A stretch of DNA of 64,000 bases from an uncultured Cohaesibacter sp. (GTDB taxonomy: Bacteria > Pseudomonadota > Alphaproteobacteria > Rhizobiales > Cohaesibacteraceae): positions 1,493,001 to 1,557,000 of the forward strand of contig NZ_OY782764.1 of the NCBI RefSeq assembly GCF_963678225.1, read 5' to 3'. Below, one piece after another: positions 626 to 21,931 of the stretch. The notes under the pieces are model-generated. The model saw nothing but the letters and a program-made list of their open reading frames with translations. It did not search any database and was not told the DNA's origin. Each line of letters begins with the position of its first letter. Within the stretch, counting starts at the first letter, position 1. The position numbers and the translations under genes are program-made.

Positions 626-662
626 AACTAAACCTTTCTAGCAAGAGTTAAGGGGAAACGGC

Positions 663-1040
663 TTAGCCGTAGAGAATGGATGGCTGAATGAAGACAGACC
701 CGATGGTGCCAACGCCACCGGCCTCCATCGCCCGACCAATGATCGGTAGAGAGGCATCAACCGCTGGCTCGGCTTTGATGGCGCAGCCATTTGCATCGGC
801 GGTCAATGGATCGCCATACGCGACACCTGCGCCATATTCCACCGGTCGGATCTGATCGTGGTAGACATCAATCCGATCACCGGCAGCAGCGGCTCCGCGA
901 ATGCCCGATGTGCCAACCAGCACATCACCAACACTGGCAACAGCCATATGGCCTTCTTCAGAACCAAAGGTGATGAGGCGGTTTTTATTGATGAGGCCGT
1001 CAGCCTCATAATTCTTGATAAAGCCCATATGCGATTGCAT
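663..1040 (-). CDS. phage capsid decoration protein (DUF2190-like)
   Basis: This 125-residue protein is rich in Gly, Ala and Val. It has the alternating 'AVASVGDVLVGTSGIRG' and 'GDPLTADANGCAIKAEPA' segments seen in small beta-barrel head-stabilising proteins of the DUF2190 type, which bind the outside of the capsid. The ATG at 1040 is chosen because an AGGAGA ribosome site lies 7 bases upstream; a second Met four codons later is less well placed. It sits between the protease/scaffold gene and the capsid gene, with 33-40 base gaps, in the late operon. Confidence 0.7.
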   Translation of the reverse strand: MQSHMGFIKNYEADGLINKNRLITFGSEEGHMAVASVGDVLVGTSGIRGAAAAGDRIDVYHDQIRPVEYGAGVAYGDPLTADANGCAIKAEPAVDASLPIIGRAMEAGGVGTIGSVFIQPSILYG

Positions 1041-1072
1041 GAGGTTTCTCCTGAAAGGTAACGGGAAAAGGA

Positions 1073-1591
1073 TTAGTCGATGGACAGGCCGTGCTTCTTG
1101 CGCACAGCCACCACAGCATCGGAGGTGGAGACTTCAATCCCGGCAGAACGCTGGCTCTCCTGAAACGCAATGGCCTCCTGCGCGATCTGATCATCGCTGA
1201 TACCATCGAGGTCCGGATCGTCACCAAGGTCCATCTCACCGAACTGGATGATTTTCGGCTGGGTCTTGAGAACGTCCTTGAGGAGATCGACCAGGTCTAC
1301 CTTTTTGGTTTCGTCTCCATCGGCAAACTCGATTTCGTCCGCATCCAGATCGGACGCCCCATCCAACAGGGCAACTACTTTTGAGCGGCTCCCTGAAGGG
1401 AGGCGACCTTCATCGACAAGACCTTCCGCAAAGGCGACATGATCTGTGTGACGTTGTTTAGTTTCGCGGCCATCAAGCTCTGCCTGTCGGGCATCCAACT
1501 CGGCTTCACGTTCAGCAAAGGCTGCAATCTGATCAGCATCACCCTGATCACGCTTGGGGGCAGTACGAGATTTTGCAGGCTTGAAAGCCAT
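1073..1591 (-). CDS. probable internal-start scaffold protein (gpZ-like)
   Basis: Inside the protease gene and in the same frame, an ATG at 1591 is preceded by GAGGA at a good distance and begins MAFKPAKSRTAPKRDQGD. The resulting 172-residue protein is the Glu/Arg/Ala-rich coiled region alone. In phage Mu the scaffold gpZ is made from just such an internal start in gene I. The nested start is seen in the sequence; its use is inferred from Mu. Confidence 0.5.
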   Translation of the reverse strand: MAFKPAKSRTAPKRDQGDADQIAAFAEREAELDARQAELDGRETKQRHTDHVAFAEGLVDEGRLPSGSRSKVVALLDGASDLDADEIEFADGDETKKVDLVDLLKDVLKTQPKIIQFGEMDLGDDPDLDGISDDQIAQEAIAFQESQRSAGIEVSTSDAVVAVRKKHGLSID

Positions 1592-2251
1592 GTCATCATC
1601 CTCACTATGTTCGTCTTCGGAAAATTCGGGGGAACTGGTCGCAGGCGGCACATCGCCAGCCTCATCAATCCAGCGAATGGAATAGTCAGGCAGGATATTG
1701 TCCGCAGTCTCGATCCCGTCCTTCTCGATCAGCCATTCGCGGAAGCGGCGAAACAGGCTGGCAACATCCTTGAAGGCGGCATCGGAGAATTCGACAGCAA
1801 TGGCATCTTCATCATCCCCGGCAAACTCAACTGGTTTGAGACCAGGAACAGCCGGAGCAACTGCCCCGAGGAACCCGACATGTTTGGGATAGAGCGCATC
1901 ACCAGCAGGATTGGACGTAGCCCCCGGCTTGTAAAAGGACATGGAAATGCGCTTGTAGCGGCCATCCTCGACCGCTTCGGAGAACTGCGGCTCCAGCTCG
2001 CCGATATCGGCATAGAGCCGGTCAGCCTCATCATCATAGGAAAAGGCTTTCACCCAACCATAAGCGGGATCATCAGTTTTGGGATGACCAACAACGACAG
2101 GCACAGGAAAGAGCTGAGGATCATAACGCTCAGCCAGATCAGCCAGCTCTTCAGCCGTCGCACTGAACGACATGCCGCCCATCGCCGTAAACGTGCCCGG
2201 ACGGAACACCTCAATGCGCTTCGTTTTGTCTTTGTCATCTACCTTGGCCAC
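1073..2251 (-). CDS. Mu gpI-like prohead protease/scaffold protein
   Basis: The 392-residue product has an N-terminal protease part (about residues 1-180, with VVVGHPKTDDPAYGWV and the RYKRISMSFY segment around the likely catalytic serine) and a charged, coiled C-terminal scaffold part. The family (Mu gpI) matures the prohead and then cleaves its own scaffold. The frame stays open up to 2332, but that extension reads through the promoter palindrome. A GTG at 2251 has GAGGAG seven bases upstream and is preferred. It lies between the inserted OLD-like gene and the decoration protein. Confidence 0.85.
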   Translation of the reverse strand: MAKVDDKDKTKRIEVFRPGTFTAMGGMSFSATAEELADLAERYDPQLFPVPVVVGHPKTDDPAYGWVKAFSYDDEADRLYADIGELEPQFSEAVEDGRYKRISMSFYKPGATSNPAGDALYPKHVGFLGAVAPAVPGLKPVEFAGDDEDAIAVEFSDAAFKDVASLFRRFREWLIEKDGIETADNILPDYSIRWIDEAGDVPPATSSPEFSEDEHSEDDDMAFKPAKSRTAPKRDQGDADQIAAFAEREAELDARQAELDGRETKQRHTDHVAFAEGLVDEGRLPSGSRSKVVALLDGASDLDADEIEFADGDETKKVDLVDLLKDVLKTQPKIIQFGEMDLGDDPDLDGISDDQIAQEAIAFQESQRSAGIEVSTSDAVVAVRKKHGLSID

Positions 2252-2305
2252 ACCGCATCTCCTCGAAACAGGTGATGGCAATTTGGCAGATAAAATGACA
2301 GCGCT

Positions 2306-2323
2306 CGCCGGAACTGTTCCGGG
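2306..2323 (-). promoter_or_regulatory. PI-like late promoter: activator palindrome
   Basis: The 18-mer CGCCGGAACTGTTCCGGG contains the 15-bp inverted repeat CCGGAA-CTG-TTCCGG (2308-2322). It lies 57 bases upstream of the GTG start of the protease gene. The same 18 bases recur upstream of the endolysin gene (12366-12383). An AT-rich hexamer about 20 bp from the centre, towards the gene (2290-2296), could be the -10 element. Gene I and lys are the genes served by the C-activated late promoters in phage Mu, so I infer a late-activator site. Confidence 0.6.
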
Positions 2324-2332
2324 CACTGTCAC

Positions 2333-2675
2333 TGCTGGTTATATCGGGAATTGATGCCCTTCTATCACCAACCGCAACGAGGGGGCAACCCATAAGCGTA
2401 GATAGCCTCTATATGGCTTTCTAACGCGCCTTTAACGCGGAGTGTTTGGATTCGGGGTATATGCGGGCGGAATGGGATGGAAAATGCGACACAGGCCGTA
2501 ACGCCAAACACGATATGCAAATGGTTCGGCGAATACAAAGCGCCCGTTCGTTGAGTTTATCATCCGAGGCCTGTTTCTGTTGACGGCATAATTTTAAATC
2601 TAGGTTGCGTCATCGGGCAGCCCCTAATACAACTATTAATAGAACACTAAATTTCTCACTAAATGGAATAAGAGA
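2333..2675. other. intergenic region upstream of the OLD-like gene
   Basis: These 343 bases separate the late promoter of the protease gene (minus) from the start of the OLD-like gene (plus). The right half is clearly richer in A and T than the phage core. It should hold the promoter of the OLD-like gene, but the candidates I see (for example TTGACG at 2579, or TTGCGT and TACAAC spaced 17 bp just before 2635) are weak. No ORF or RNA gene is supported. Confidence 0.4.
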
Positions 2676-4631
2676 TTGCCTCACCAACTTTCATTTCACC
2701 TACCTTACAAATCGATCACATCGTTCAGAGACATAGAGCTTCCCGACTTTTGTTTGGTGACCGGCAAGAACGGTTCAGGAAAGTCACACCTATTGGAGGC
2801 TATTGAGAAGGGCACAATAAGAACTTCTGTAACGGACGACTCCATCGGAATGATTGCGAGGTTCGACAGTGAGTCAATTATTCCCAAAGACACTGGCAAC
2901 TACAGCCCAGCCCATGCTGCGATACAAGAAGACGAAAAATTCAGGCAGATAAGTGAGAAACGACCGAATATAATAACAGAAGCCCAACGCACTTTATCGA
3001 ACTGGGGCTTATCTCCTAATAGCGTTGTTGACATGGGAGATGTGCTTCAGCTCGCAGATGAAGCTTCTTTTCGGGCTGCGTTTTCTCAAAATCCTAATCT
3101 GGAAAACTTTTACGATTCTTATAAAAAGCAGGTTAGTATTTGGGCTGAAAATTCAGTGCAAGCTCAAGGTCAAAACGACAAGCTTGGTAAAAAACTGAAA
3201 GAGCTGGCAAAAACCCACCCTGCCTTACTACTCACCGGTAGCCAGTCTGAAATATTCCGTCACGAAATTTTCGAGAAAACGGATGTTGGAGCTTTCCAAC
3301 AGGCATTTGGCAAAGTATTCACTGACTACCGGAAAAAATTAATTGAAAATGCTTCAAATCCACTTGAAGATGATAAGCAAATAGCGTTGAACGACAAGCA
3401 GTTTGTCATTAAATTTGGTCCCAAGCCCTGGGATTTCGTGAATGAGATTCTCGAAATTAGCAATTTGGACTTTAGGATTAACCACCCTTTACTGAATGAA
3501 CCATATGGTTCTTTTGAACCACGCCTAACCAAGGTTTCGACCGAAGTAGAAATGGGGTTCGCAGACTTGTCATCCGGAGAGCGCGTTTTAATGTCGTTTG
3601 CACTCTGCCTTTACAACTCCTCAGAGAATAGACATGCCGAAGCGTTTCCTAAGCTGTTGCTACTGGACGAGATAGACGCTCCTCTTCATCCCGACATGGT
3701 CAGATTTGTCCTCAAGACCATACGTGAGGTACTTGTTGAGAAGCATAAGATTGCTGTGATCGCGACCACGCACTCTCCTACAACTGTCGCATTATTTGAG
3801 AGCGATAGTATTTTTGAAATGAATCCAGATGGTCCATCTCTTGAAAAAATTACAAAAGATCGCGCCTTGTCGATCCTAACTGTAGGCGTACCAACGGTTT
3901 CGGTTTCATACAATCAAGTAAATCAAGTATTTGTGGAGAGCGAAACTGATGCGGTTGCCCTAAGTGAACTCTACAAGACCTTTAAATCCTCTCTTTCGTC
4001 CGAGCGTTCCGTCCAGTTCATTAAGTCAGGGCGTAAAGCCGATGCTGGAAATGAAGAAAACGCAGGCTGTGCACGCGTCAAATCGGTTGTCAAAGACCTC
4101 AGAAGCGCAGGGGTAACAACAGTCTTTGGGCTGATTGATTGGGATGGGAAAAACAAGTCCGAAGAGGGAATTTTGGTTTTATGTGAAGGCACGAGATACT
4201 CAATTGAAAACCTACTTCTCGATCCTGTCATAGCCATTGCTGCTTTAGCCAAGGAATTCACCGTCTTCGCGAAACAAAACCAACTCCTAAATGACGATGA
4301 AACATTTGTAGGATTGGTAAACTGGGATGAAGTAAGGTGGCAAAACGCTTCCGATCAATTGATGCAAATCGTGGGTATGGAAGCGGATGACAAGATAAAC
4401 GTAGACTATCGCAACGGCATGAAACTTCAATTTGCACGTTCGTACTTGGAGATGCGTGGGCATGACCTGACCGATTTGGTTTGTGAAAGAATTTTACCGT
4501 TCAAGAGCAAAAATCAGCAAGGAAAGTTGGAAGCCTTTATCGTGCAGAATGTCGTACCTGAAGTGAAGAACTTGATACCGTGCGAGATGCTAGATTTGTT
4601 CGAAAAGCTGACAACTCTAAGACCACACTAA
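2676..4631 (+). CDS. OLD-like AAA/ABC ATPase with C-terminal TOPRIM nuclease domain (candidate phage defence)
   Basis: The protein has 651 residues. Residues 1-390 form an ABC/SMC-type ATPase: Walker A GKNGSGKS (30-37), signature LSSGER (298-303), Walker B LLLLDEID (327-334) and switch His365. Residues about 415-600 look like a TOPRIM nuclease: VFVESETDA with Glu421 and Asp425, GLIDWD with Asp488 and Asp490, then the Arg-x-x-Ile-Glu-Asn segment near 507-512. This layout is that of OLD-family nucleases, known from P2 Old and Gabija GajA. No UvrD-like helicase lies beside it, so it resembles a stand-alone class 1 OLD. The start is a TTG; the next Met would remove the Walker A. Low GC and opposite strand, inserted between gpG and gpI, mark it as cargo. 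Confidence 0.82.
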   Translation: MPHQLSFHLPYKSITSFRDIELPDFCLVTGKNGSGKSHLLEAIEKGTIRTSVTDDSIGMIARFDSESIIPKDTGNYSPAHAAIQEDEKFRQISEKRPNIITEAQRTLSNWGLSPNSVVDMGDVLQLADEASFRAAFSQNPNLENFYDSYKKQVSIWAENSVQAQGQNDKLGKKLKELAKTHPALLLTGSQSEIFRHEIFEKTDVGAFQQAFGKVFTDYRKKLIENASNPLEDDKQIALNDKQFVIKFGPKPWDFVNEILEISNLDFRINHPLLNEPYGSFEPRLTKVSTEVEMGFADLSSGERVLMSFALCLYNSSENRHAEAFPKLLLLDEIDAPLHPDMVRFVLKTIREVLVEKHKIAVIATTHSPTTVALFESDSIFEMNPDGPSLEKITKDRALSILTVGVPTVSVSYNQVNQVFVESETDAVALSELYKTFKSSLSSERSVQFIKSGRKADAGNEENAGCARVKSVVKDLRSAGVTTVFGLIDWDGKNKSEEGILVLCEGTRYSIENLLLDPVIAIAALAKEFTVFAKQNQLLNDDETFVGLVNWDEVRWQNASDQLMQIVGMEADDKINVDYRNGMKLQFARSYLEMRGHDLTDLVCERILPFKSKNQQGKLEAFIVQNVVPEVKNLIPCEMLDLFEKLTTLRPH

Positions 4632-4802
4632 GAACGAGTCTCTTTTTGTTTGCTCCGAAGAAATATTGTGAAGCTCCAGCCAATGTCTGCTTTGGCGGGC
4701 TTTGCGCTGCACTGCGAACCTTTATCAATGACAGGAGCGGTACATCCTTGTGAAAGGTGGTAATTCGTTCGAAAAACCAACTTTGACTTTTGGCCAAATC
4801 GC

Positions 4803-5306
4803 TCACTCCCCCAGATACCCCTCAAGCTCCTCCCTGATCACTTCTTCATCCTGCCGCCCTATGCCGATATAAGGCCGGGCCGGGATCTTCACGCCCTTGC
4901 TGAAGACATAGCCTTCTGCACCGCCCGCAACAGGAATGCGTAGAGATTGGAACCGACGAGGTTTGATCTTGGCACCATGCTGCATGACCCAAACTTTGGG
5001 ATGGTTGAGATTGGTGCCGACCTCAGCATTGGCAGCACTGGCTGTGAAGTGGATTGAGCGGATCAGCTCGCCGCTGTCTCGGAGGATCCCTTTGGGCTGT
5101 CGACGGTTGGAGAGCGTGAGCGGCGTCAGGGGTGCCCATTTGTTACCGTCCGGATCTTCCTCCTTCTCAAAGCGATCCGTGGTCTGGTCATAGAGCGCCA
5201 TGCCAATAACACGATGAACAGCGGCCTTGTCTTCGATCCTGTCGATGAGGCGACGGATTTCCTGATCGGCGGAAGCATAGTCATATGTGAAGCTCAGGAA
5301 CGGCAT
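4803..5306 (-). CDS. Mu gpG-like virion morphogenesis protein
   Basis: The 167-residue protein has features of the gpG / phage virion morphogenesis family, which joins heads to tails or completes tails: FEKEEDPDGNKWAPLTPLT, ILRDSGELIRSIHF, and a C-terminal PARPYIGIGRQDEE. An in-frame ATG exists at 5315, but the AAGGG ribosome site is directly against it and is well spaced for the ATG at 5306. It follows the gpF-like gene as in Mu. On its left it faces the tail of the OLD-like gene across about 170 bases of AT-rich DNA with no recognisable gene. Confidence 0.85.
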   Translation of the reverse strand: MPFLSFTYDYASADQEIRRLIDRIEDKAAVHRVIGMALYDQTTDRFEKEEDPDGNKWAPLTPLTLSNRRQPKGILRDSGELIRSIHFTASAANAEVGTNLNHPKVWVMQHGAKIKPRRFQSLRIPVAGGAEGYVFSKGVKIPARPYIGIGRQDEEVIREELEGYLGE

Positions 5307-5345
5307 TTGAAACATCCCTTCAAAACTGCTATATTATAGCCAGAT

Positions 5346-5417
5346 GAAATCGGGGGCCGGTGCGGGCCTCCATACCGATTTCACTCGAAAGGCAGCTCGC
5401 ATCGGCTGCCTTTTTTA
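5346..5417. terminator. hairpin pair between gpF and gpG genes
   Basis: GAAATCGG (5346-5353) pairs with CCGATTTC (5375-5382). Directly after it GGCAGC and GCTGCC form a stem (about 5390-5410) followed on the plus strand by TTTTTT. On the plus strand this is a good intrinsic terminator and could stop transcripts coming from the OLD-like cargo. On the minus strand the stem also ends close to an A/T run and may weaken late transcription into gpG. Confidence 0.5.
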
Positions 5418-6731
5418 GTTTTCTCCGGCTGACGTTGCGCGGCGGAACAACAGCACCCCGCGACGCCATGTATTGATCTGGTTGAGGTTTGGTTTTCGCT
5501 TGCGGCCTGTTTCCGCATTGTAGATGGTGGTTCCGCTCCAACCATCCTGCCCCCATTCAAAGACACTGAGACCGGCCAGATTGGTCGAAGCCCGAAGATA
5601 ACGGCGTTTCAACACCCATTTTTTGAGATGGCTATGCCATTCCCAATCCACCCAGATTTCATCTGGATCCTTGAGAGCTTCAGCGAGGCGCAAGAGCTGA
5701 ACAGAGCGGGAGGAATTGAGTTTGATGGAGCCATCATGGCGTTTAAACAGTTCCTCGCCGACAACAAGTACTTGGCCAGCTTTATCCCTAAACAGGACGG
5801 GCTCACCTTCATCAGCACCGAACGCGGACAGGAACGCAGAAACATAATCAGCATCCTCCAGTCCCTTGGGCAGCACCTCGGCTTGCACGGGACGGGCAAT
5901 CGCACTCATCTGAGGCAAAGGATCGGTATAAGGCAAGGTGAGCTGTTTTGGGTTACTGCGCAGAAGTTCACGCGGAATGGTTCCGTCCGCCCATGTTCGT
6001 CCTGGCGCATAGGCCCAGCCCATATCGACACCGGCAGGATAATCAATCTCTTCGCCAGTACCGGGATCGCTTCTGCGTACATGCTGGATGGACGGTGCGG
6101 TATCCGGAGCCTCCTTGCCCATCCGTTTGAGCTTGGCGCGACTGACAGGGCGCACGCCGCACCCGCATTTCCAACCATTTGGTGGATAGTAGGTCTGCCA
6201 CCATGGATCATCAGCCCGGAGGATCAGGCCATCCCATCCAACATGCTCCTCACGAGGGTCTAGCGGAATGCGTTCCCAGGCGTGCTTATATTGCCAGTAA
6301 GGAAAAGCCTTAAGCGTGGCAGGATCGGTCATCTGCTTGTAGCGACCGGCAGCATAGGCGGTTTTCAGGTTGGTCTCATAGATGACACGGGCACGCCAGT
6401 TGCGGCCCCCATTGTAATCCCAGCCGTGCCTTTTGACGATCTCGTCAAAGCGATCAATGAATCCGGGATGATAGGTGTCGTCCTTATCAAGCCAACCCTT
6501 GAGCGGCATTCCCTTGGCTATCGCATCATCGATGGCCTGCTGGAAGTCTTCCAGCAGCGCGTCCTTCTGCGCACCAGCCACAACAAAAGCCCGGTCATGG
6601 CCATGATGGAGTAGATCAGACCAGGTGCGGGTTGGCAGGCGCACTTTCTGGCGATGGAAATCCAACGCCTCATCAAATGGCCCAACCTCAGCAAAGCTTA
6701 CGGGATTTTGGTCTTTTTTTTGAGCCGACAG
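5415..6731 (-). CDS. Mu gpF-like head morphogenesis protein with C-terminal PBECR nuclease domain
   Basis: The N-terminal three quarters match the gpF / minor head protein family: FDEALDFHRQKVRLPTRTW, the DRAFVVAGA segment, and the cysteine pair region GWKCGCGVRPVS. The last about 130 residues (with DEIWVDWEWH, RRYLRA and VFEWGQDGWSG) resemble PBECR2, a barnase-EndoU-colicin-like RNase domain found on phage head proteins and probably injected with DNA. The frame overlaps the portal gene and stays open further upstream, but no ATG or GTG with a ribosome site is seen. The given start (CTG at 6731) is only where similarity should begin. Confidence 0.8.
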   Translation of the reverse strand: MSAQKKDQNPVSFAEVGPFDEALDFHRQKVRLPTRTWSDLLHHGHDRAFVVAGAQKDALLEDFQQAIDDAIAKGMPLKGWLDKDDTYHPGFIDRFDEIVKRHGWDYNGGRNWRARVIYETNLKTAYAAGRYKQMTDPATLKAFPYWQYKHAWERIPLDPREEHVGWDGLILRADDPWWQTYYPPNGWKCGCGVRPVSRAKLKRMGKEAPDTAPSIQHVRRSDPGTGEEIDYPAGVDMGWAYAPGRTWADGTIPRELLRSNPKQLTLPYTDPLPQMSAIARPVQAEVLPKGLEDADYVSAFLSAFGADEGEPVLFRDKAGQVLVVGEELFKRHDGSIKLNSSRSVQLLRLAEALKDPDEIWVDWEWHSHLKKWVLKRRYLRASTNLAGLSVFEWGQDGWSGTTIYNAETGRKRKPNLNQINTWRRGVLLFRRATSAGEN

Positions 6732-8298
6732 CCTTGGAAGGATAGATACCAGTTTCGTCAATAATGTCAGATCGGCCCGTGATTTCGGAGAGAGCAATAG
6801 CATCGCCCAGAATACGGCCCATCGGATCAATTTCCAGTTCGCCAGACAGATCCAGTAGAGCCTTGGAGGCTTCACCAAAGCTGGTGACTGCGGCCAGTCT
6901 CTCGCGGATCCGCTCAAGCCAAGTCTGCTGGAGAGGTGCTGCCAGATCCTCCAACTGGTCAATCAGGTGTGCAACAGGCCCTTCATCATCGGCAAAGGCA
7001 CTCTGTTGATCATCAGCCGGAGTTGTGACCTCAACAGGGACCATTTCTTCATCGAAAACGCTCGCAAACCATTCCTGCAGGTTTTTGGGCTCGAACCCCT
7101 GTTTACGCGCAGCATCAAGGGAACGAATGTCAGACTGGCGCCGCTCGGCTGTTTTCTTCTTCTGATCTTCTTCGGCTTCTTCATTTTTCGGGCGAGGACG
7201 CCACACGGTTGGTGGTTTCGCACCCGGCCAGTTCAGTTCAGTAATCCAGGGCAGCAGGGTTGCATTCAGCGTGTCTGATAACTGATCACAATCATCGTCA
7301 ACGATACTGTCTGTTTCTTCCGCATGGGTTTGTGATGCGGCCCGAGACCCTTGCCCTTTTACGCTCGTGGACAAGGTGCTCCCAAGCACCACCTCGGAGG
7401 TCTGTTCATCCCAGAAGCGGCACCATTCCTCATAGGATGCATTGCCGGTTCGGGTTGCCTCCAGAAAGCTGACCTCTGTACCGATTGGTGCAACCAAAGC
7501 CCCTTGCTGCACCATAGCCATCAAAGAATTGAGCAACTGCTCCTGTTCCTTCTTGGGTGTGCCGACAGCATATTTGCCAAACGGAATGGGGGCGGCAAAC
7601 TTGTCCAGGAACTTCATCCAGAAGGAAACACCTTCTCGCTTGAACAAAACATGCCAGAAGAGAACGGAGCCAAGCCCCATGCCATAAGGATTATTGCCCT
7701 CCACATCAAAGCGATGAACCATGAATTTGCGAGCGGGAAGAGCAACACCATCAATCGAATTTTCTGGCGTTAGAAGGCGTGGCGTCCAGTCTTTGGCAAA
7801 ACAAAAGCGCATTTGATTGTGCGATTTGATCTTAACCGGCACCACCTGGCCGTCATCATTGCGCCCCCAGATGATTTCCGAAACCGCGAAACCCTTAAGA
7901 ATGGCTTTCGCCAGATCTTTGCAAATGGAATCGAACGGCAGGGAATTGAGAATGCCTTCCACACCATCTCTGGCCTTGATATCCTCGGGCTCTTCGCTTG
8001 CTGCTTCAACTTCCCATTCACGACGCGTAATCTTGGAATAGCGTTTGCTAAGCGTGGCCTTGGCGCGCCCGTCCTTCATAACCTCATCATAGAGTTTTAG
8101 GCCCTTGTGCGGCCCTTTCTCCTGAATGGTCGTATCTTGCGGGATCAGGATGTCTGAATAAAAGGGAACGGTAATATCATTCTCAACGGTCGCGATCAGC
8201 TGACTTCCCTGTTTGGGCAGTCTTTTCCGCACGGTTTGTTGCACAGCTTGTTGAGCCGCACGACGGCGAGCGCGGTTTTTGCGAGATTTGCGGCTCAT
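6688..8298 (-). CDS. portal protein, Mu gp29-like (DUF935)
   Basis: The 536-residue protein has the layout of the DUF935 portal family, the dodecameric ring through which DNA enters the head: a basic N-terminus (SRKSRKNRARRRAAQQ), then YDEVMKDGRAKATLSKRYSKI, an AVSEIIWGRNDDG segment, and WKMFLDKFAAPIPFGKY-like core (FWMKFLDKFAAPIPFGKY). Its ATG overlaps the stop of the terminase by four bases, so the two are translationally coupled. The extreme 3' end overlaps the gpF frame at an eight-A run. Confidence 0.9.
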   Translation of the reverse strand: MSRKSRKNRARRRAAQQAVQQTVRKRLPKQGSQLIATVENDITVPFYSDILIPQDTTIQEKGPHKGLKLYDEVMKDGRAKATLSKRYSKITRREWEVEAASEEPEDIKARDGVEGILNSLPFDSICKDLAKAILKGFAVSEIIWGRNDDGQVVPVKIKSHNQMRFCFAKDWTPRLLTPENSIDGVALPARKFMVHRFDVEGNNPYGMGLGSVLFWHVLFKREGVSFWMKFLDKFAAPIPFGKYAVGTPKKEQEQLLNSLMAMVQQGALVAPIGTEVSFLEATRTGNASYEEWCRFWDEQTSEVVLGSTLSTSVKGQGSRAASQTHAEETDSIVDDDCDQLSDTLNATLLPWITELNWPGAKPPTVWRPRPKNEEAEEDQKKKTAERRQSDIRSLDAARKQGFEPKNLQEWFASVFDEEMVPVEVTTPADDQQSAFADDEGPVAHLIDQLEDLAAPLQQTWLERIRERLAAVTSFGEASKALLDLSGELEIDPMGRILGDAIALSEITGRSDIIDETGIYPSKAVGSKKRPKSRKLC

Positions 8299-9941
8299 AA
8301 TCGATAGCCTCCTAATGCGCCCTGACTAACGGGAGCGGCAGTCGTGATAGAGGTGGCGGTCAGAGTGGTTGCTGCCATTTCAATGGCATGCTTCCAGAGC
8401 ATTTCAAGACAGTCTGGACCGTCATCGTGATCAGCCATCGGCCATTGTTGCAGTTGATCAATCAGGGTCTGCTGGCTTTTGTGCAAACGGATGGTTCCAT
8501 CGGAGATCGGGATCTGGAGCCGCTCAATGCGCAGGTTCTTATCAATGATTGGCGTTACCGGATAGGCAGGCAGAGCAAGGCCAGCTTTGGCAGCCCGCTT
8601 CATCAATTCCGTGCGCAGGAATTCCTGGAACTGCACAACCTCGGCAAACCACATCTGACATTGATAGTCCCGCTGCATGGAAATGATGTCATCAATGATG
8701 AGATCAGGCACACGACGGCGAATGGAAGCTTCAACGATATCGAGAATGGCGCTTTCCTTGTCATAGGCTCCAACCAATATGGCCGATGGGTCGCGATTGC
8801 GATTATTCTTGCCGAGGGAGGGATCGACTGCACCAAAGAACAACCAGTCCCGATTGACCCGCACCCACCATGTGATGCTTTGAAAGGGGTTATCGAGCGC
8901 AAGGGGTTTGTTCTGATATTCAGATTCAAAGGCAGCATGATCACCAGCTCGCTCTTTCATCAGGAAGAGGAGTGAGTGATTGGCCGGCCAATTGAGAACC
9001 GCCCCCTGGTCCATGGTGGCTTTGTTGGCAGCATAGAAGCTATCAGCTTCAGGCTCACCCTCATTGAGATAGATTTCTTCCCACTCATCCCAGAGCGCCA
9101 TATCATCTGGCCAGTCAAGGATGGCGCGAAACTCGGTCACATGCCATCCGGGCTTTTTGGAATAGCGGACGATAACTGCGTCAAAATGCAGAACGGTTCC
9201 GGCATAAAGTACATCCATGGAACCATCGGTTGGACCAAGTTTGAGAACAGCCTTGGCGATCCAGCTTTCCAACTTGTCGCGCTGTTTGGGACTGGCGACA
9301 TTCTCGTCATTTTCGATATCATCAAGGATAGCCAGGTCCGGGCGATAAGGACCATGGCGACGGCCTCGGATTTTCTTACCGGTACCGAAGCCCTCCACCT
9401 TGATATTGTTGCGAGTGACAATATCGCCCTCGCGCCAGACACGACCCTGCCCAAAGATTTCAGGGAAGTCATATTTGAGGCGCGGATTGACTTCCAGTTC
9501 GGCCTTGAGGGCTTCCAGCATCACGGCGGCCTGCTCGAAGGCGTCCATAATCAGGACAATATAATGCTTCAAGCCCCGAGTGATGCACCAAAGTGGGAAG
9601 ATGAGACTGATGTGGGTGGATTTGGCAGACCCTCGCGGAGCGATGACAAGCCGCTTCTGGCCATCTTTCGTGGTCACCATCATGGGCAGGTCTTCATAAA
9701 GATGCTCATGCAACATGGATGGCGCAGACGTCAGATAGTGTGGGAAATAGGTTTCGGCAAAGAAGCGATAACCAGACTCGTCTTCAGCGACCTTCTTTTG
9801 CCGTTCGGCGCGTAATTGAGGGTCAATTGGAAAGGCTTCCACCTCCAGCTCGATCTTCAGGCGGAATTCTTCCGCCAAATCAGAAAGGCGATTGAGAAAC
9901 TCTTTTGACTTCAGCTGTTTCTTCTGCGGTGATCGGCTCAT
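8295..9941 (-). CDS. terminase large subunit, Mu gp28-like
   Basis: This is the motor ATPase and nuclease that packages DNA. The 548-residue product shows a Walker A-like APRGSAKST near residue 100, a Walker B DLAILDDIENDE near 210, and the RNase H-like nuclease start FFGAVDPSLGKNNRNRDPSA near 370, all in the expected order and at normal length. The ATG overlaps the stop of the small-subunit gene (ATGA), and its own stop overlaps the portal start. Transposable phages package headful from host-flanked ends, which agrees with the Mu-type neighbours. Confidence 0.92.
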   Translation of the reverse strand: MSRSPQKKQLKSKEFLNRLSDLAEEFRLKIELEVEAFPIDPQLRAERQKKVAEDESGYRFFAETYFPHYLTSAPSMLHEHLYEDLPMMVTTKDGQKRLVIAPRGSAKSTHISLIFPLWCITRGLKHYIVLIMDAFEQAAVMLEALKAELEVNPRLKYDFPEIFGQGRVWREGDIVTRNNIKVEGFGTGKKIRGRRHGPYRPDLAILDDIENDENVASPKQRDKLESWIAKAVLKLGPTDGSMDVLYAGTVLHFDAVIVRYSKKPGWHVTEFRAILDWPDDMALWDEWEEIYLNEGEPEADSFYAANKATMDQGAVLNWPANHSLLFLMKERAGDHAAFESEYQNKPLALDNPFQSITWWVRVNRDWLFFGAVDPSLGKNNRNRDPSAILVGAYDKESAILDIVEASIRRRVPDLIIDDIISMQRDYQCQMWFAEVVQFQEFLRTELMKRAAKAGLALPAYPVTPIIDKNLRIERLQIPISDGTIRLHKSQQTLIDQLQQWPMADHDDGPDCLEMLWKHAIEMAATTLTATSITTAAPVSQGALGGYRL

Positions 9942-10447: not shown

Positions 10448-10666
10448 CTAGATCCCGAGTTTGTCTTTGAAGAAGGCGATTCCGACAGCTACAACTCCCG
10501 ATGTAACGGAAGCTGTCATGAATGAGTTCTTAGAGGCTTTGACCTCAACATCGCGCAGGCGGGCATCCTGTCCATCAAGACGCCCACTGATGCCGTCCAG
10601 CTTGCTATCCATGCCAGCCATAAGGCCTTCAATACGACCCAGCCGCGTGTTGATCTCGTCGGACAT
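10448..10666 (-). CDS. small coiled-coil/one-membrane-segment lysis-cassette protein
   Basis: The 72-residue protein has a heptad-rich N-terminal half (INTRLGRIEGLMAGMDSKLDG) and one hydrophobic segment near residues 50-66 (SFMTASVTSGVVAVGIAFF). This is the plan of XhlA-like haemolysin/holin helpers. It overlaps the stop of the holin-like gene by one base (TGATG) and precedes the terminase, so it belongs to the lysis cassette. The function is inferred from shape and place only. Confidence 0.6.
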   Translation of the reverse strand: MSDEINTRLGRIEGLMAGMDSKLDGISGRLDGQDARLRDVEVKASKNSFMTASVTSGVVAVGIAFFKDKLGI

Positions 10667-11091
10667 CAGGACTTTCCTTTCCGATAATTGAGGCCGCGAA
10701 CAACCTTCTCAATTGGACGTGTGACGAAATAGGCCGCAAGGATCCAACCTGCCCAGTTGCCGATAGGGTTGGGCAACTGGGCAACACTCCAATGGAAGTG
10801 GAACAGACTGTCAGCGATGACTGCGCCATAATAGGCAATGGTGGGATAGGCAAAGAGTGGACGGATCATAGCCGTGAGCCACCAGCCCTGTTCGGCAATC
10901 ACAATGTCACGCGCGGCATTGCGGGCTGCGACATCCGCTTTGATCTCTTCTATGGTGACCTGCGCACCGATCTTGGTACGTTCTGTCAAACCATCAGCCT
11001 TATGCTCGAAATAGGACAGCACCCGGTCGACAATATCGAGCCCCAAAAAGGAAAGGAGCTTGGTGCCAAGCTTGACGATCCAGCCAATCAT
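10666..11091 (-). CDS. holin-like membrane protein (3TM type)
   Basis: The 141-residue product carries an N-terminal amphipathic or membrane segment, a charged middle (LTERTKIGAQVTIEEIKADV), then two hydrophobic segments (around FAYPTIAYYGAVIADSLF and GNWAGWILAAYFVTRP). This order resembles the three-TM holins used for phage or gene-transfer-agent release. The start at 11091 overlaps the stop of the endolysin gene (ATGA). A longer frame to 11190 exists but lies inside the endolysin gene. Confidence 0.7.
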   Translation of the reverse strand: MIGWIVKLGTKLLSFLGLDIVDRVLSYFEHKADGLTERTKIGAQVTIEEIKADVAARNAARDIVIAEQGWWLTAMIRPLFAYPTIAYYGAVIADSLFHFHWSVAQLPNPIGNWAGWILAAYFVTRPIEKVVRGLNYRKGKS

Positions 11092-12302
11092 CCCACATGC
11101 CTCCAGGTCTGAGCATCCATCAAGCGGCGCTGTTTGATCTGATGGGCAACATAAATGATGACGAGGCCGACAAGACCGAAGGCCAACCACTTATTGTCAG
11201 AAACCAGGGAGAGCAAAGGAGCCAGCTGAGTTCGAAGGCCCTGCAGAGTCGATGTGACCTGCCCCAGACCATCCAGTAATCCACCAGGATCGACACCATC
11301 AAGTCCGCTTGCGAGCGTGCCTGTTCCCAGAACTGCACCGCCAAGTCGTGTTAGCCAATCAGCCTTTTTAACGGTGTCGGAACCGGATTTGCGCAAGTCT
11401 GCGACCGTCAGGCTATCCCGGCTATTACCGAGCTGCAGGTTGATCGGTACTGCGCCTTCGAGAGCAGATTGGGTTTTGGGGCCAACCATACCGTCCGTCT
11501 TAAGGCCATGATCGACCTGAAAAGCCACCACGGCTCGGCGGGTAGCTGGGCCAAAATCGCTATCAACCTTGACATGATAACCTAACTCGCAGAGCCGCTC
11601 TTGCAAGGCCTTGACCATATAGCCTTCCGAGCCAAGCCGGAGCATGGTGAACCGAGCGGATGCTTTGCCCTTCCTTGCCCCTTCCGATCCGCCAAGACGT
11701 TCATAGGCCTTGCGCATCAGGTTTGCATAATGGCTCACCTGACTGGAGCCATTGTAGCGTCGGGCAATCCCCTCCCAGTCTTTCTCGCGCAACTCATCAG
11801 CAAGGCCGGAGTTTTCAAGGAAGGACAGGAAGGCTTCGACACAATGGGTGCTGGATTGAGCCAATGCCAAGACGAATTCGGAAACAGTGCCATAGCCGCA
11901 AAGGCGATGATTGAACCCCATCCCCTGAAAGGAAGCATAGGAGGCTGACTTCAACGCGGCCTCCTCATCGAGGCGCGCCCATTTTTCCATAAGAGCCCAG
12001 CGTTGTTCGGAGCCTTTGCCACCAAGGCCTTTATAGTTCGCACGAGACCACTTGCGCGCAGACAACCGCAAACTCAAGGCCTTCTTGCGTAGACTCTTTG
12101 GCAATTGGCGATTAAAAATGTGCTTTTCGGGAAGGATAATCAGGCGACCTTGATCATCATAATCATCACCGCCGCTCTCAACTTCAAGGATGGCTCGAAG
12201 CACGTTGACCTCACAGCCTATCCGGCTGGCAAAGGTCTCAATAGTGGCTGTAATATCGGTGACTTCGCCACCACCCTGGCGCAACTTGGCAACAACAGAC
12301 AT
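11088..12302 (-). CDS. endolysin: N-acetylmuramidase with peptidoglycan-binding domain and C-terminal membrane anchor
   Basis: The 404-residue product starts with a muramidase domain of the DUF3380 type (about residues 20-195; likely catalytic Glu in ILEVESGG, then QRWALMEKWARLDEEAA and SYASFQGMGFNH). A PG_binding_1 repeat follows (about 215-275, VKALQERLCELGYHVKVDSDFGP and VVAFQVDHGLKTDGMVGP), and then a late membrane segment (KWLAFGLVGLVIIYVAHQI). It cuts the glycan backbone at lysis. The ATG at 12302 fits the upstream promoter better than the open frame to 12341. It is the first gene of the late operon, as lys is in Mu. Confidence 0.88.
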   Translation of the reverse strand: MSVVAKLRQGGGEVTDITATIETFASRIGCEVNVLRAILEVESGGDDYDDQGRLIILPEKHIFNRQLPKSLRKKALSLRLSARKWSRANYKGLGGKGSEQRWALMEKWARLDEEAALKSASYASFQGMGFNHRLCGYGTVSEFVLALAQSSTHCVEAFLSFLENSGLADELREKDWEGIARRYNGSSQVSHYANLMRKAYERLGGSEGARKGKASARFTMLRLGSEGYMVKALQERLCELGYHVKVDSDFGPATRRAVVAFQVDHGLKTDGMVGPKTQSALEGAVPINLQLGNSRDSLTVADLRKSGSDTVKKADWLTRLGGAVLGTGTLASGLDGVDPGGLLDGLGQVTSTLQGLRTQLAPLLSLVSDNKWLAFGLVGLVIIYVAHQIKQRRLMDAQTWRHVG

Positions 12303-16828: not shown

Positions 16829-17412
16829 GGAATGATCTCCCCGCGCTCACCAAGGTTATGATCGAAAAGACACCTCTTGTTGGCCCGATAGATCGGAGCA
16901 ATCGGACCAGTATCTTTCAACAAACGAAACCGCTTGAAGCCGTTAGACGTAAGCTTTGTACCCTTTGCCCTAACGGGCAGCACAGTCAGATAGCGTGCCT
17001 TCACCAGCGCGCAGAAATACCGCTGGAGATTATTGTCCGCACCTTTCTCGGAGCCGGAAGCTGCTGCCATGACAATGTCACCAATCGTGAAGGATCCCGA
17101 CATGCGCATGGCATTCCATGCCCGTTGGCGAAGGGTTTCGCGTGGTTTGCGGCTCAATCCGCGATCTGCTCGGATTGGCCCAGAGGTTACCTTGCCGCCA
17201 GTTGCCAAAAGTGCTTTTCCATCATCGGTAAGCTGATAGCAGCCAAGTTCCACTCGCTCGAGCAACCCGCGTATGACCAGTCGACCTGCGCATTTGACAA
17301 TCTCGCACCGTTTGAAATCAGACAGGGCATAGTCCAGATGATCAATGGTGTGGCATTGGCCATCAGATAGACGGTGCAGCACCGCGTTGGAAAGATCGCC
17401 GACCGCCATCAC
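16819..17412 (-). CDS. early phage protein with two probable winged-helix domains
   Basis: In 197 residues two similar blocks can be seen. Near 4-62 (AVLHRLSDGQCHTIDHLDYA, GRLVIRGLLERVELGCYQLT) and near 88-150 (TLRQRAWNAMRMSGSFTIGD, LVKARYLTVLPVRAKG) each reads as a winged helix. The start overlaps the MuB stop. No specific name is supported. A duplication within one chain would fit a DNA-binding accessory of transposition or replication. Confidence 0.6.
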   Translation of the reverse strand: MMAVGDLSNAVLHRLSDGQCHTIDHLDYALSDFKRCEIVKCAGRLVIRGLLERVELGCYQLTDDGKALLATGGKVTSGPIRADRGLSRKPRETLRQRAWNAMRMSGSFTIGDIVMAAASGSEKGADNNLQRYFCALVKARYLTVLPVRAKGTKLTSNGFKRFRLLKDTGPIAPIYRANKRCLFDHNLGERGEIIPCQ

Positions 17413-18176
17413 ATCACCTCTGGAACTGCAATGGGAAGATTGCGCTGGCGGTCGATCAGCAAGGTCTCGCCCACCATATCAGTCATGGTGAGACCGCCAT
17501 CATCTGGTTCATTGCGAAGGCCGAACCGTTCAATGTTAGCGATGGCCTCGAGAATTTCACGGTTATAGCCACTAGAGGCTTTGAGGACGAACTTGGTTAA
17601 GTCCGGGGCAACAGGCACTTCGCAGCGACCGGAGATCAGAGCATTGACATCATCCTCAGAGCAATTCTCGAACCGTACCTTCTGAGAAACACGCGAAGCA
17701 ACCTGAGGAAAGCGTTTGAGATTGTCATTAACCTTGCCCATGCCAACCAGAATGGTCGGCAATTCAATCATGTCCGAGATATCTCGAATGGTTTCCAGAA
17801 TGGGGGATTTGCTAGACACATGATCGGCTTCATCAATCACGAGCCCGAAGGTCTTATTGGCCATCTGGGCTGAAGCCTGACGGCTTGCCAGTTCTTCCAA
17901 GGCCAGCTTGTATTTCTTTTGGAAAGCGTGTGGTGGCGTAACACGCACATTCTCCAACAGCTCGGTCATAAACCAGTTGGGTGTCCATTCCTTCTTCGCA
18001 CGAAGATAGATACTTCCGGTTTGGGCAACCCAATGCTTGAGCGTTGTCGTCTTGCCCAGTCCTGGCGCACCATCAACAACCACAAGACAGGCCTCATCTG
18101 CGCCACGTTGGCTAAGCCGGTCCAAGGCTGAAAGAAAGCGCGAGACGTTGCTGGTCTCGACAAATACATTCCGCAT
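17409..18176 (-). CDS. MuB-like ATP-dependent target DNA activator
   Basis: The 255-residue AAA+ protein has Walker A GAPGLGKTT (about residues 36-44), Walker B TFGLVIDEADH (about 111-121) and a sensor segment PTILVGMGKVN. MuB forms ATP-bound filaments on target DNA, keeps transposase away from the phage itself, and stimulates strand transfer by MuA. It follows the transposase gene by 28 bases with AAGGAG before the ATG. Length and place are normal for Mu-like phages. Confidence 0.92.
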   Translation of the reverse strand: MRNVFVETSNVSRFLSALDRLSQRGADEACLVVVDGAPGLGKTTTLKHWVAQTGSIYLRAKKEWTPNWFMTELLENVRVTPPHAFQKKYKLALEELASRQASAQMANKTFGLVIDEADHVSSKSPILETIRDISDMIELPTILVGMGKVNDNLKRFPQVASRVSQKVRFENCSEDDVNALISGRCEVPVAPDLTKFVLKASSGYNREILEAIANIERFGLRNEPDDGGLTMTDMVGETLLIDRQRNLPIAVPEVM

Positions 18177-18204: not shown

Positions 18205-20430
18205 TCAGGCGGCGGCGCGGAGGACGTTTCGAAGGGCTTCCACGTCGACACCATTGAGGCGGAACAGTTCCAAAGAGGTGCTGCGCTGGAGACATCCGGT
18301 CAGCACCTTTTTTCGTGATGGGGTTAGTTCTTCAGGATGGTCGATCACCCAAGCTGCCAGTTCCTCATCGGTTGAGAAAACGCGCTTGCGTGGTTTCGAG
18401 GGTGTGATCTCAAGAACAGGGGCTGGCTCGATCAATTCACGGGATGCATCGGCTTCACTCGATGTTGAGGCAAAGCCATCCAGCACATTGAGATTTTCGG
18501 CTGGGTTATGCTCAAGCACCAGATCCGAGCGCAACTGGTCATCGACCTTGTTCATCTTGTCTGCAAGGCGGCGTTTCTGGGCACGAGCGCGTTTTTCGAT
18601 AGCGGCCTGCTCGTAGGAAACCGAGACATAGCGCTCTTCATTGCCTGCAAACTCAGCAACACAGATCAAGCGCCCCGGTAGGAGTTCGCCATCAACTTCA
18701 TCGATTTCACGCACCCAGAGCCTGCTGGCATCTTTGATGTCATAGGCAACAATGACCTTGTCGCCGTGATACTGTTCCAGATCCTGATGGAAATACTGGT
18801 TGGTGTTCCAGTTGATGAGACACCTGCTGACAGTGCGTATTTCATGCGGTCTGAACAGGTCATCCACTTCAAACGGCTGCACAGATACTGGCTCAAAGCC
18901 CTTGGCCATCTGGGCCGCCCAGAACTCATTGGGCGACATATGCCGCTTTCTGCCGGTAATCGGGTCAGGAGTTTTCGGAAGCTCTGAGTGAGGCTTGTTG
19001 TTATAGACATCAATTGCCTTTTCGCAGTCGGCCAGAAACTCATCCCATTCAATGAGAATACGGCTTTTGCCCAGCGTCTTGATTTCGCGTCTGGTGATGT
19101 CGAAGGCCTTTTTCCGTGCCTCCTTGTCCATATCGCGACCGACATAGGTGACATAGCTGCGCGCCAGAGGGTTCCAGACGCTCCCATGAAACCGTTCGAT
19201 GATGCCGCGCGCTTGCGAATTATACGCAATAGAATGCATCTTGGAGATACCAAGACGCCCCATCATGCCCGTAGCGTCAGCATCAAATGTCTTGTTTTTG
19301 TAGCCTGGGCCGTTATCGACATAGAAAATTGCCGGGATGCCATGCTCTACGCTAGCCCTGCGTAAGGCATCGGCAACAGCAATCACATTCTCTTTGAGGC
19401 TGATAGAGAAACCGACGCACTTTCGGGTAAAAACATCTACCACTGACGTGATCTCTGGCCGGAAAGGCTGTCCGGTCAATAAGTGCGCGACCTCGGCATC
19501 AAAGGTCTTGCCATCGGCAGTGTAGATCGATGTCGGCATCAATCCGTCCGTCGACCGGCTGACATAGGCCATGCGCGCCTTGATGGTCAAAGCACCTTCA
19601 CGGCCCCGGACACGATCCACATTGCCCAACTTGGAGAGCGCAGTGCGTACCTGCTTATAAGTTGGTGCGAGGTCCCTGTTCTCCAGAGTATCAACATAAG
19701 CGCCAAGAGCTTCCGCAATGGTTGGCTTTGAAGGACGGGCATAGAATTTGAGAAAATCGCCGAACCATTCGACCTCGTTAAGGGGCTTGGCCTTTTTCTT
19801 GATCTGAGGTGCGAGAGCGGTAACACCACCCTCGTCGCGAGCCGAGAACCATCCATAGATGGAGCGCAAGGAAAGACCATTTTTCCTCTCGATGCTCTTC
19901 CGCGCAGCGTCATCGATGGCCGCGTAGTCACATTTCTGTTGGCTGTGCTCATCGCTGGTCGGCAGACCGGATCGGTACAGGGTAAGATCTTCCAGAAACT
20001 GCAAAATGGCTTTTCGGCGAGACAGGTCTATGAGAATAGAACGGCGCTCAATTTCGATCAGAAGAGCAGCCCGAGCTTCCATCATGGTGCGCTGACGAGC
20101 GTTAAGGTCATTCTCGCCTTTGACAGCAATTGCCGTCTGTCTTTGCACACGTGCTTTCTTAAGAGCGAGCTTGTCCAAAGAGATTCGCTTATCTAGATCC
20201 GCACGTGCGGGTTCAGGAAGTAAATCGATATGATATTCCCAGCCACCACCACCTTTGCGCCCAGCGCGCTTACGAGCACATGAAGTGGCTTGCCAATCCG
20301 CCCTGTCTGCGCGGCCTAGAATGCCACGCTCACTTCCCGGAAGCCCCTGCAACTTCAGCTCAGCCAGCTCCCGTGCAGTAAACCACTCACGCATGGTGCC
20401 ATTTTCAACGATGGAGATTGCTGATGTCAT
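18205..20430 (-). CDS. MuA-like DDE transposase
   Basis: The 741-residue protein has the N-terminal winged MuA-type DNA-binding domain (EWFTARELAELKLQGLPGSE), end-binding domains, and an RNase H-like core. The likely catalytic residues are Asp306 (in YTADGKTFD), Asp372 (in FYVDNGPGY) and Glu412 (in GIIERFHGS); the beta-barrel and a C-terminal MuB-interaction tail follow. It joins phage ends to target DNA for integration and replicative transposition. The ATG at 20430 is favoured by GGAGG eight bases upstream and the ATGA overlap with the previous gene. The catalytic triad is complete, so transposition may still be possible. Confidence 0.95.
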   Translation of the reverse strand: MTSAISIVENGTMREWFTARELAELKLQGLPGSERGILGRADRADWQATSCARKRAGRKGGGGWEYHIDLLPEPARADLDKRISLDKLALKKARVQRQTAIAVKGENDLNARQRTMMEARAALLIEIERRSILIDLSRRKAILQFLEDLTLYRSGLPTSDEHSQQKCDYAAIDDAARKSIERKNGLSLRSIYGWFSARDEGGVTALAPQIKKKAKPLNEVEWFGDFLKFYARPSKPTIAEALGAYVDTLENRDLAPTYKQVRTALSKLGNVDRVRGREGALTIKARMAYVSRSTDGLMPTSIYTADGKTFDAEVAHLLTGQPFRPEITSVVDVFTRKCVGFSISLKENVIAVADALRRASVEHGIPAIFYVDNGPGYKNKTFDADATGMMGRLGISKMHSIAYNSQARGIIERFHGSVWNPLARSYVTYVGRDMDKEARKKAFDITRREIKTLGKSRILIEWDEFLADCEKAIDVYNNKPHSELPKTPDPITGRKRHMSPNEFWAAQMAKGFEPVSVQPFEVDDLFRPHEIRTVSRCLINWNTNQYFHQDLEQYHGDKVIVAYDIKDASRLWVREIDEVDGELLPGRLICVAEFAGNEERYVSVSYEQAAIEKRARAQKRRLADKMNKVDDQLRSDLVLEHNPAENLNVLDGFASTSSEADASRELIEPAPVLEITPSKPRKRVFSTDEELAAWVIDHPEELTPSRKKVLTGCLQRSTSLELFRLNGVDVEALRNVLRAAA

Positions 20431-21798: not shown

Positions 21799-21931
21799 TT
21801 CAGACCTAGAATTCATTCTATTGAGCGGATTTAGCCGCTTAATAAATTGAATTATAAGGATTTTCTCGGTGGTCTGAAGTTTAAATTAAGGTCTGAAAAC
21901 ATAGTCAGACCTTGAAAATTTGAGGTCTGAA
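21799..21931. promoter_or_regulatory. repressor operator array (GGTCTGAA repeats) at the early/repressor switch
   Basis: Copies of GGTCTGAA lie at 21871-21878, 21890-21897 and 21924-21931. Inverted copies lie at 21799-21806 (exact) and 21904-21911 (one mismatch). They fill the region between the divergent early and repressor genes, and the last touches the repressor start. This is what is expected of an immunity operator; binding by the S24 repressor or Ner is inferred. The rest of 21,700-21,870 is AT-rich and should hold the early promoter. Confidence 0.6.

Follow-up and report, generated by a model that had tools for sequence, protein, structure and literature searches.

A Mu-like prophage carries, between its gpG and head protease/scaffold (I) genes, a complete gene whose 651-aa product combines an ABC/AAA_15-21 ATPase with what profile comparison points to as a DUF4435/AriB-type TOPRIM domain. 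The gene occupies 2676..4631 on the plus strand; coordinates are positions in the window, the whole 64-kb stretch of DNA that was analysed. Its place is a variable slot that related prophages fill with mutually unrelated genes, and we consider it likely that the gene is prophage cargo encoding a one-protein, PARIS-like abortive anti-phage defence.

The reading frame has no internal stops and opens with TTG, a start that fits because in 16 of the 33 aligned relatives the first residue is the one aligned with residue 3. The full-length frame, the in-register ABC and TOPRIM motifs and the existence of distant full-length relatives together lie far beyond chance, and mark the gene as real rather than a chance ORF. 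By PHROGs, it is flanked by two head genes, a gpI-like head maturation protease/scaffold gene (1073..2332, minus strand; the ORF as listed, with the true start probably at a GTG near 2253) and a gpG-like tail completion/Neck1 gene (4803..5315, minus strand), which forms the other edge of the cargo site. DUF1804, terL, portal and gpF genes lie upstream and scaffold/cement and major head genes downstream, all on the minus strand (Pfam, PHROGs). The earlier note, made from the letters of the sequence, had described a complete gene on the opposite strand between gpG and gpI in DNA poorer in GC than its neighbours; position and strand are as it described, and the GC content of the cargo gene is 0.438 vs 0.539 in the head genes. 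Between the farthest-reaching homologous flanks, at 2525..4747, blastn finds nothing similar in the 10 related loci that were compared. By eye, the surrounding prophage looks whole: a 746-aa transposase-like ORF (18205-20445), an ATPase ORF where MuB would lie (17409-18176) and a repressor-like ORF (21920-22582) can be seen, and sheath, tape-measure and baseplate-like ORFs lie past the window start, these names coming from no family search.

The ATPase half contains a Walker A motif (GKNGSGKS, residues 30-37, 2763..2786), an ABC signature (SSGE, residues 299-302, 3570..3581), the Walker B pair D331-E332 at the end of LLLDE (3666..3671) and an H-loop histidine (H366, 3771-3773), all on the plus strand. 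In the 34-row family alignment described below, G30, K36, G301, D331, E332 and H366 are invariant, as are S299 and E302 of the signature and the TOPRIM residues E421, D488 and D490; conservation is slightly lower at D425 (33 rows), N512 (32) and E511 (30). The key residues that had been picked out by motif (Walker A 30-37, Asp/Glu of Walker B, E421, D488, D490) are all present as named. Pfam assigns the product to AAA_15 (2.1e-15, 57.6 bits, cut-off 32.1) and AAA_21 (7.5e-15, 56.2 bits, cut-off 27), both also matched in 34/34 family members. PADLOC matches are all partial and include mad3, ATPase-Toprim_I-B, AriA, AriAB and numerous further ATPase models; AriAB matches all 34 members at E ≤ 1e-5, as do many ATPase models. 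Among solved chains, sequence comparison ranks retron PtuA ATPases first and AriA lower down, in each case over the ATPase half only, and the family profile gives 3e-19 for Retron/Septu PtuA and 1.1e-11 for AriA. PtuA, the best solved relative of this half, is not known to have such a TOPRIM half. Judged by its motifs, the product is an ABC ATPase with TOPRIM-type motifs on the same chain.

The C-terminal TOPRIM region was modelled as residues 394-651 (3855..4628, plus strand). The alignment places E421 at 3936-3938, D488 at 4137-4139, D490 at 4143-4145 and E511-N512 at 4206-4211. Modelled alone, the domain reaches a pLDDT of 91.8 and a pTM of 0.86, and its elements run strand, E421, helix, strand, helix, strand, D488xD490, the order of strand-Glu-helix-strand-helix-strand-DxD expected of TOPRIM. 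The full-length model has a pTM of only 0.49, and the packing of the domains is not readable from it. A Foldseek search of the TOPRIM domain model against PDB and BFVD gave no match at E ≤ 0.001, its listing showing low TM-scores and many rmsd values of 10-25 Å, and on these values it speaks neither for nor against the TOPRIM fold that the earlier note had proposed to check in a structure prediction; with the whole model, the best 50 matches were driven by the ATPase, mainly retron PtuA and SMC/Rad50-type heads, with one Eco8 and one AriA.

Comparison of profiles separated the two candidate TOPRIM types. The DUF4435 set held 14 proteins, eight standalone and six fusions, from 16 loci (L103, L136-L150, without L146 and L149; three of the proteins used, L147, L148 and L150, fall below the Pfam cut-off), and the OLD-like TOPRIM set held 15 proteins from 20 loci (L151-L170; L165-L169 left out) and came without a positive control of its own. 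In hhalign, the C-terminal family profile scored 97.9% against the joint DUF4435 set, 96.8% against its eight standalone proteins and 96.8% against the fusions, vs 0.8% against the 15 OLD-like proteins, with reversed-profile controls at 0.0-0.3% (0.1% for the DUF4435 type, 0.3% for the OLD set). The standalone DUF4435 set itself scored 0.1% against the OLD set, and the test therefore separates types and cannot prove a common fold. In the hhalign alignment, E421 falls opposite the Glu of the FVEG motif, D488xD490 opposite IDxD and E511-N512 opposite IEN.

A plain search with the C-terminal HMM pointed in the same direction, more weakly. Its best matches were fusion L140 (4.6e-7) and the standalone proteins L145 (2.7e-6) and L147 (4.8e-6), followed by an OLD-locus protein, L167 (3e-5), and then fusions L103 and L143; six of the eight standalone AriB-type proteins scored worse than E 0.05. 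Pfam DUF4435 was matched directly in 5/34 members (E ≤ 0.01, best 6.6e-5), and in the 651-aa product itself neither DUF4435 nor an OLD-type TOPRIM family (PF20469 kind) was matched at E ≤ 0.1. In a TOPRIM tree built without fusion L143, 31 of the 34 members stand apart from the five fusions used, with a support of 89/76 that is not strong, and the other three rows (L070-L072) group with the fusions; the tree as a whole has long branches and weak deep support. By these profile comparisons, the TOPRIM half matches the DUF4435/AriB type, as in PARIS, and not the OLD type. The earlier note's term "OLD-like ATPase/TOPRIM" therefore stands as to the ABC ATPase and the TOPRIM-type motifs and falls as to "OLD-like", and an OLD/Gabija assignment of the TOPRIM half was rejected on the same hhalign contrast.

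These results bear directly on whether the gene encodes a solo nuclease of the Class 1 OLD type, such as P2 Old, an ATP-regulated DNA nuclease that would exclude particular phages via their DNA or a repair-inhibited state. Like the gene here, Class 1 OLD proteins are encoded by single genes, with P2 Old as the archetype (PMC10568477), and a single prophage-borne gene with ABC ATPase and TOPRIM-type motifs is what such a nuclease would present; the match to L167 also leans this way. Besides L167 and L168, the latter identical with L149 of the DUF4435 loci, however, no protein from the OLD loci scored better than E 0.05 in the plain HMM search, and the profile value for the OLD set lies close to its reversed control. 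P2 Old would then resemble the gene product in layout and differ in the type of TOPRIM, and we regard a Class 1 OLD nuclease as unlikely.

The layout found here, with a DUF4435-type TOPRIM joined to an ABC ATPase, is that of the PARIS ariAB fusions (AAA_15/AAA_21 + DUF4435; proposed as "Class 4 OLD"). The product is 95-118 residues longer than the fusions compared (533-556 aa). The AriAB model PDLC02981 gives it 47 bits over residues 289-538, spanning both halves, vs 74 for fusion L140 and 82 for L103, and PDLC02982, which scores those fusions at 634 and 196 bits, is not among the best 25 models here. GajA of Gabija likewise unites ATPase and TOPRIM on one chain, but Gabija has an adjacent UvrD-like GajB helicase, whereas here the OLD-type TOPRIM is unmatched, the flanks are head genes and no helicase adjoins the gene; the gene is not half of a standard Gabija pair, as had been proposed from the letters. 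The effector of Retron I-B (Eco8) is also an ATPase-TOPRIM protein and shares PADLOC model matches with the product, but a reverse transcriptase and an msr/msd RNA adjoin it, and no reverse transcriptase stands beside the gene here, which is flanked by head genes. IbfA (518 aa, plasmid pUA1135) and HEC-04 are described as ATPase-TOPRIM proteins with phage interference (PMC12111858); they were compared by description only, and IbfA sits in a plasmid operon, unlike the solo prophage gene. Solo ATPase-TOPRIM proteins (PMC10568477) and ariAB fusions (PMC9122126) are already in print.

Beyond four plasmid proteins, relatives were found by alignment rather than by single sequences. In tblastn, neither the gene product nor three further family members matched any of 50,697 phage records; the product found four relatives on plasmids. 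A single-protein search for related loci in viral and genome contigs gave none, and a five-row alignment begun from the four plasmid proteins gave at least 33 viral-contig loci and at least 7 genome loci, counts that are lower bounds and measure neither family frequency nor phage preference. The 34 rows of the family alignment are the gene itself, genome loci L073 and L074 and all viral loci but the truncated copies L052 and L069 (31 of 33); also left out were five genome loci matching partly or weakly, the full-length G116 (L011), the partial G209 (L012) and the four plasmid proteins. A class-wide search matched 225 of 385 genomes, those listed nearly all by short ATPase matches; among the matches listed, G000 and G116 are full-length and G209 is partial.

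Two neighbours on each side were collected from 35 relatives' loci, giving 123 proteins, of which 116 were scanned with Pfam (the other seven being one from L047 and six from L069-L071). Phmmer clustering of the 123 produced no cluster in more than three loci. SRAP (5), phage integrase (4) and D12 methyltransferase (3) were the commonest families in the 116, and terminase, antitermination Q, lysozyme and holin families appear among the best 25 of 49 Pfam families. The five SRAP matches probably correspond to two phmmer clusters (L041, L042, L054, L060, L062); beside the 2676-4631 gene itself there is no SRAP neighbour. Most of the relatives among the matches listed come from viral contigs, where their neighbours include integrase, terminase, lysis and other phage genes. 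Because the neighbours are varied phage genes and no cluster spans more than three loci, the family is phage-associated and has no fixed partner, and by its sequences it is a diverged family of solo genes in varied places. At tblastn sensitivity it is not seen in isolated phages, and its tie to phages rests on IMG/VR contigs and this prophage. A Y/F-x-D-D string occurs in two of the neighbours (L043, L062).

This survey also weighs on the reading of the gene as the effector of a multi-gene system, of retron I-B type or a similar kind, with a partner that has been lost or is encoded elsewhere. The PADLOC model ATPase-Toprim_I-B is among the best for the product (8.8e-19) and matches 34/34 members, but the commonest neighbour family accounts for only 5 of the 116 neighbours scanned and no reverse transcriptase is found among the best 25 of the 49 Pfam families. 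We consider such a system hardly probable at all.

A solo defence protein resembling PARIS remains our preferred reading, and known PARIS biology suggests how it may work. In two-gene PARIS, AriB is freed from the ATPase scaffold on sensing of an anti-restriction protein. Growth arrest there is reported to follow sensing of T7 Ocr, and single-gene ariAB fusions are reported as well (PMC9122126); AriB, a TOPRIM nuclease, cleaves tRNA in an E26-dependent manner (PMC12409363). By analogy, the ATPase half, as a PARIS/Septu/OLD-type ABC ATPase, would oligomerise and serve as both scaffold and sensor, and the TOPRIM half would be an AriB-type metal-dependent nuclease kept inactive by its own ATPase. 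A phage component would alter the state of the ATPase and let the nuclease fire; the nuclease would then cut an essential nucleic acid, perhaps tRNA as AriB does, and the cell would be stopped before the superinfecting phage matures. Because a fused nuclease cannot be released whole, activation would have to proceed by rearrangement or proteolysis. With its confident domain model and diverse members, the family offers a test case for a nuclease that cannot leave its scaffold.

The gpG-I junction was compared across prophages carrying a protease homologue, which was found in 8 of 101 genomes searched and in 17 of 397 in an order-wide search, the prophage's own genome being included in both; weak protease matches from the latter (G484, G492, G533) lie outside the comparison. 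Junctions were taken where both gpG and the protease could be placed, and prophages with a protease at least ~55% identical formed the related group. In this group, the gap is filled in 8 of 9 members, each time by a different insert. It holds the ATPase-TOPRIM gene in the own prophage (2.5 kb), a 1169-aa KAP NTPase (3.7e-19) in G003/L095 (4.2 kb), a Na/Ca exchanger in G001/L094 (2.8 kb), a 333-aa protein of no known family in G014/L096 (1.2 kb), and IS transposase-like and transglutaminase-like genes, both recognised by eye, with uncharacterised others in G016/L097 (5.9 kb). In G005/L098 (5.9 kb) it holds Drt3a (4.4e-97) and Drt3b (2.5e-160) with a methyltransferase and one uncharacterised gene, in G017/L099 (2.5 kb) RelA/SpoT and NA37, and in G769/L171 (2.5 kb) two uncharacterised ORFs; the ninth junction, on viral contig L093, is empty (~0.24 kb). 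No pair among 15 insert proteins compared across loci matches at E 0.01. GC content falls below that of the flanks in 8/8 filled junctions, only slightly so in L094. In six of the eight, the main insert genes are oriented opposite to the head genes; in L099 and L171 they have the same orientation. The 333-aa insert of L096 has no match in Pfam, PADLOC or PHROGs at E ≤ 0.01. By eye, it shows a RES-like pattern.

Outside the related group, the junction is empty in the more distant L100 (~0.27 kb) and L172-L175 (0.13-0.33 kb), and intermediate in L176, where a 0.9-kb gap holds a 148-aa ORF. Of the 62 isolated-phage records in which the protease was matched, 11 were examined. Ten show no insert: the protease is preceded, at 0.19-0.28 kb, by a gene occupying the position of gpG, whose annotation is virion morphogenesis or Neck1 in eight phages and hypothetical in two. 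The eleventh, phage KS10, has a different gene order. KS10, L101 and L102, where the order differs, and G008 (L177), which has a gpG-like piece and no protease in the stretch, were not counted as junctions. The comparison thus strongly supports the gpG-I junction as a cargo site with varying contents in this group of phages, which bears out the earlier suggestion of a cargo site; the alternative of a conserved core gene, raised along with it, came out clearly opposite when the junction was compared in related prophages. Different lineages of this Mu-like phage would have filled the slot with different genes. In the open PMC literature we found no account of such a slot in Mu-like phages. Pseudomonas Mu-like phages are described with other plastic regions, one of them between the protease and major head genes (PMC4378225), and defence systems in Mu-like phages are mentioned elsewhere in passages that do not name the gpG-I place (PMC9519451). 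The slot is a place to seek unknown defence genes, and uncharacterised inserts are already present in it.

Its contents are not all defensive, the Na/Ca exchanger and the transposase seen by eye being examples, and the ATPase-TOPRIM gene might by the same token help the lysogen otherwise, through DNA repair, stress or growth control or anti-plasmid action, without being aimed at phages. The transglutaminase-like insert, the four plasmid-borne relatives and the SRAP peptidase gene within two genes of probably 5 of 35 relatives all fit such a role. Described ATPase + TOPRIM proteins, however, are mostly defence effectors (PMC12111858, PMC12409363, PMC9122126, PMC10568477), one exception being an archaeal ATPase of the OLD class with a role in the cell cycle (PMC12796447), and the viral contigs and phage-gene surroundings of most relatives listed also speak against it. 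We judge a benefit of this other kind quite improbable, and anti-phage defence the better reading.

The position of the slot may be explained by a direct repeat, CGTTARA-n4-CGTYARA, found upstream of the protease gene by junction alignment (2420..2437, minus strand). It is common to ten aligned junctions, the eight filled ones and the empty L093 and L172, from which the pattern was drawn, and matches once in the 64-kb window vs 0.03 expected, allowing up to 1 mismatch. Exact copies occur in 29 of 177 loci scanned, namely this prophage group (with overlapping copies), L101/L091, L102/L087 and phage RR1-B, lying near the major head gene and in the other orientation in L101/L091 and L102/L087; the exact repeat is absent from L100, L173-L176 and the other 10 isolated-phage loci. 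It probably belongs to a P_I-like late promoter. All inserts lie on the gpG side of it save the L096 ORF as listed, which starts a few bases past the repeat (4379 vs 4388-4405) and whose true start may be further in.

The slot would then separate two late transcription units, the end of ...gpF-gpG and the promoter element of I..., and a foreign gene between two such units should not disturb the virion genes; since the inserts sit upstream of the conserved repeat, capsid expression should be spared. With this likely reason for its position, the gpG-I slot is a Mu-like counterpart of the P2 and P4 hotspots, where lineages likewise swap unrelated genes, many of them defensive, at a fixed place (PMC9122126, PMC9519451); it differs in belonging to a Mu-like phage and in lying directly upstream of an element that is conserved and resembles a late promoter. 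We tentatively suggest, as a possibility that may well not hold, that the family is a distinct phage-borne ATPase-TOPRIM branch in which the PARIS sensor and nuclease form one inseparable chain that would fire by a change of shape and be shuffled via this slot.

A promoter/terminator scan gave counts near those of shuffles, with sites all on the minus strand. Between the repeat and the protease start lies a palindrome, CCGGAACTGTTCCGG (2308..2322), whose core is unchanged in seven of the ten aligned junctions and differs in the other three.

Related Mu-like prophages carry different genes at the site that the ATPase-TOPRIM gene occupies, between gpG and the head maturation protease gene. Within the head cluster of prophage L098, the insert (3950-9860) is composed of a Drt3a/Drt3b reverse-transcriptase pair, a methyltransferase, and an uncharacterised 318-aa protein. 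The L099 insert (4560-6628) consists of two genes, encoding a RelA/SpoT-domain protein and a nucleoid-associated NA37 protein, which share a 4-base overlap and may form a toxin-antitoxin or defence pair. L171 also harbours a two-gene insert (10575-12223), encoding a 343-aa protein assigned to phrog_3482 and a 205-aa protein that appears membrane-like by eye. The 333-aa insert of L096 (4379-5380) displays a RES-like pattern by eye and matched nothing in Pfam, PADLOC, or PHROGs at E ≤ 0.01.

Two short elements precede the protease gene. The direct repeat CGTTARA-n4-CGTYARA, located on the minus strand at window positions 2420-2437, precedes the unit of head genes in this group of Mu-like prophages, on its upstream side, and is probably a late-promoter element. 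Between this repeat and the protease start, at window positions 2308-2322 and at the homologous places, lies the palindrome CCGGAACTGTTCCGG, with a core unchanged in seven of the ten aligned junctions; the versions in L099 and L171 are changed and still mostly palindromic. The palindrome could serve as an operator or a 5'-UTR hairpin.

Among 116 scanned neighbours of ATPase-TOPRIM relatives, five matched Pfam SRAP, placing a SRAP peptidase gene at most two genes from the ATPase-TOPRIM gene; the loci concerned are probably L041, L042, L054, L060, and L062. This proximity may reflect a functional link, or SRAP may simply be a common phage gene. On the Caballeronia plasmid pNK84, another relative (L005, 4410-6191) follows a gene for a large TIR-domain protein, with a second TIR-domain protein gene 1.2 kb downstream.

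Elsewhere in the window's prophage, the gpF-like minor head protein (5415-6962, minus strand) bears a C-terminal PBECR2 nuclease domain (1.3e-29). Near the prophage's other end (L178), inspection by eye revealed an FRG-like ORF (647-1564, plus strand) and a D12-type adenine methylase-like ORF (3304-4128, minus strand).
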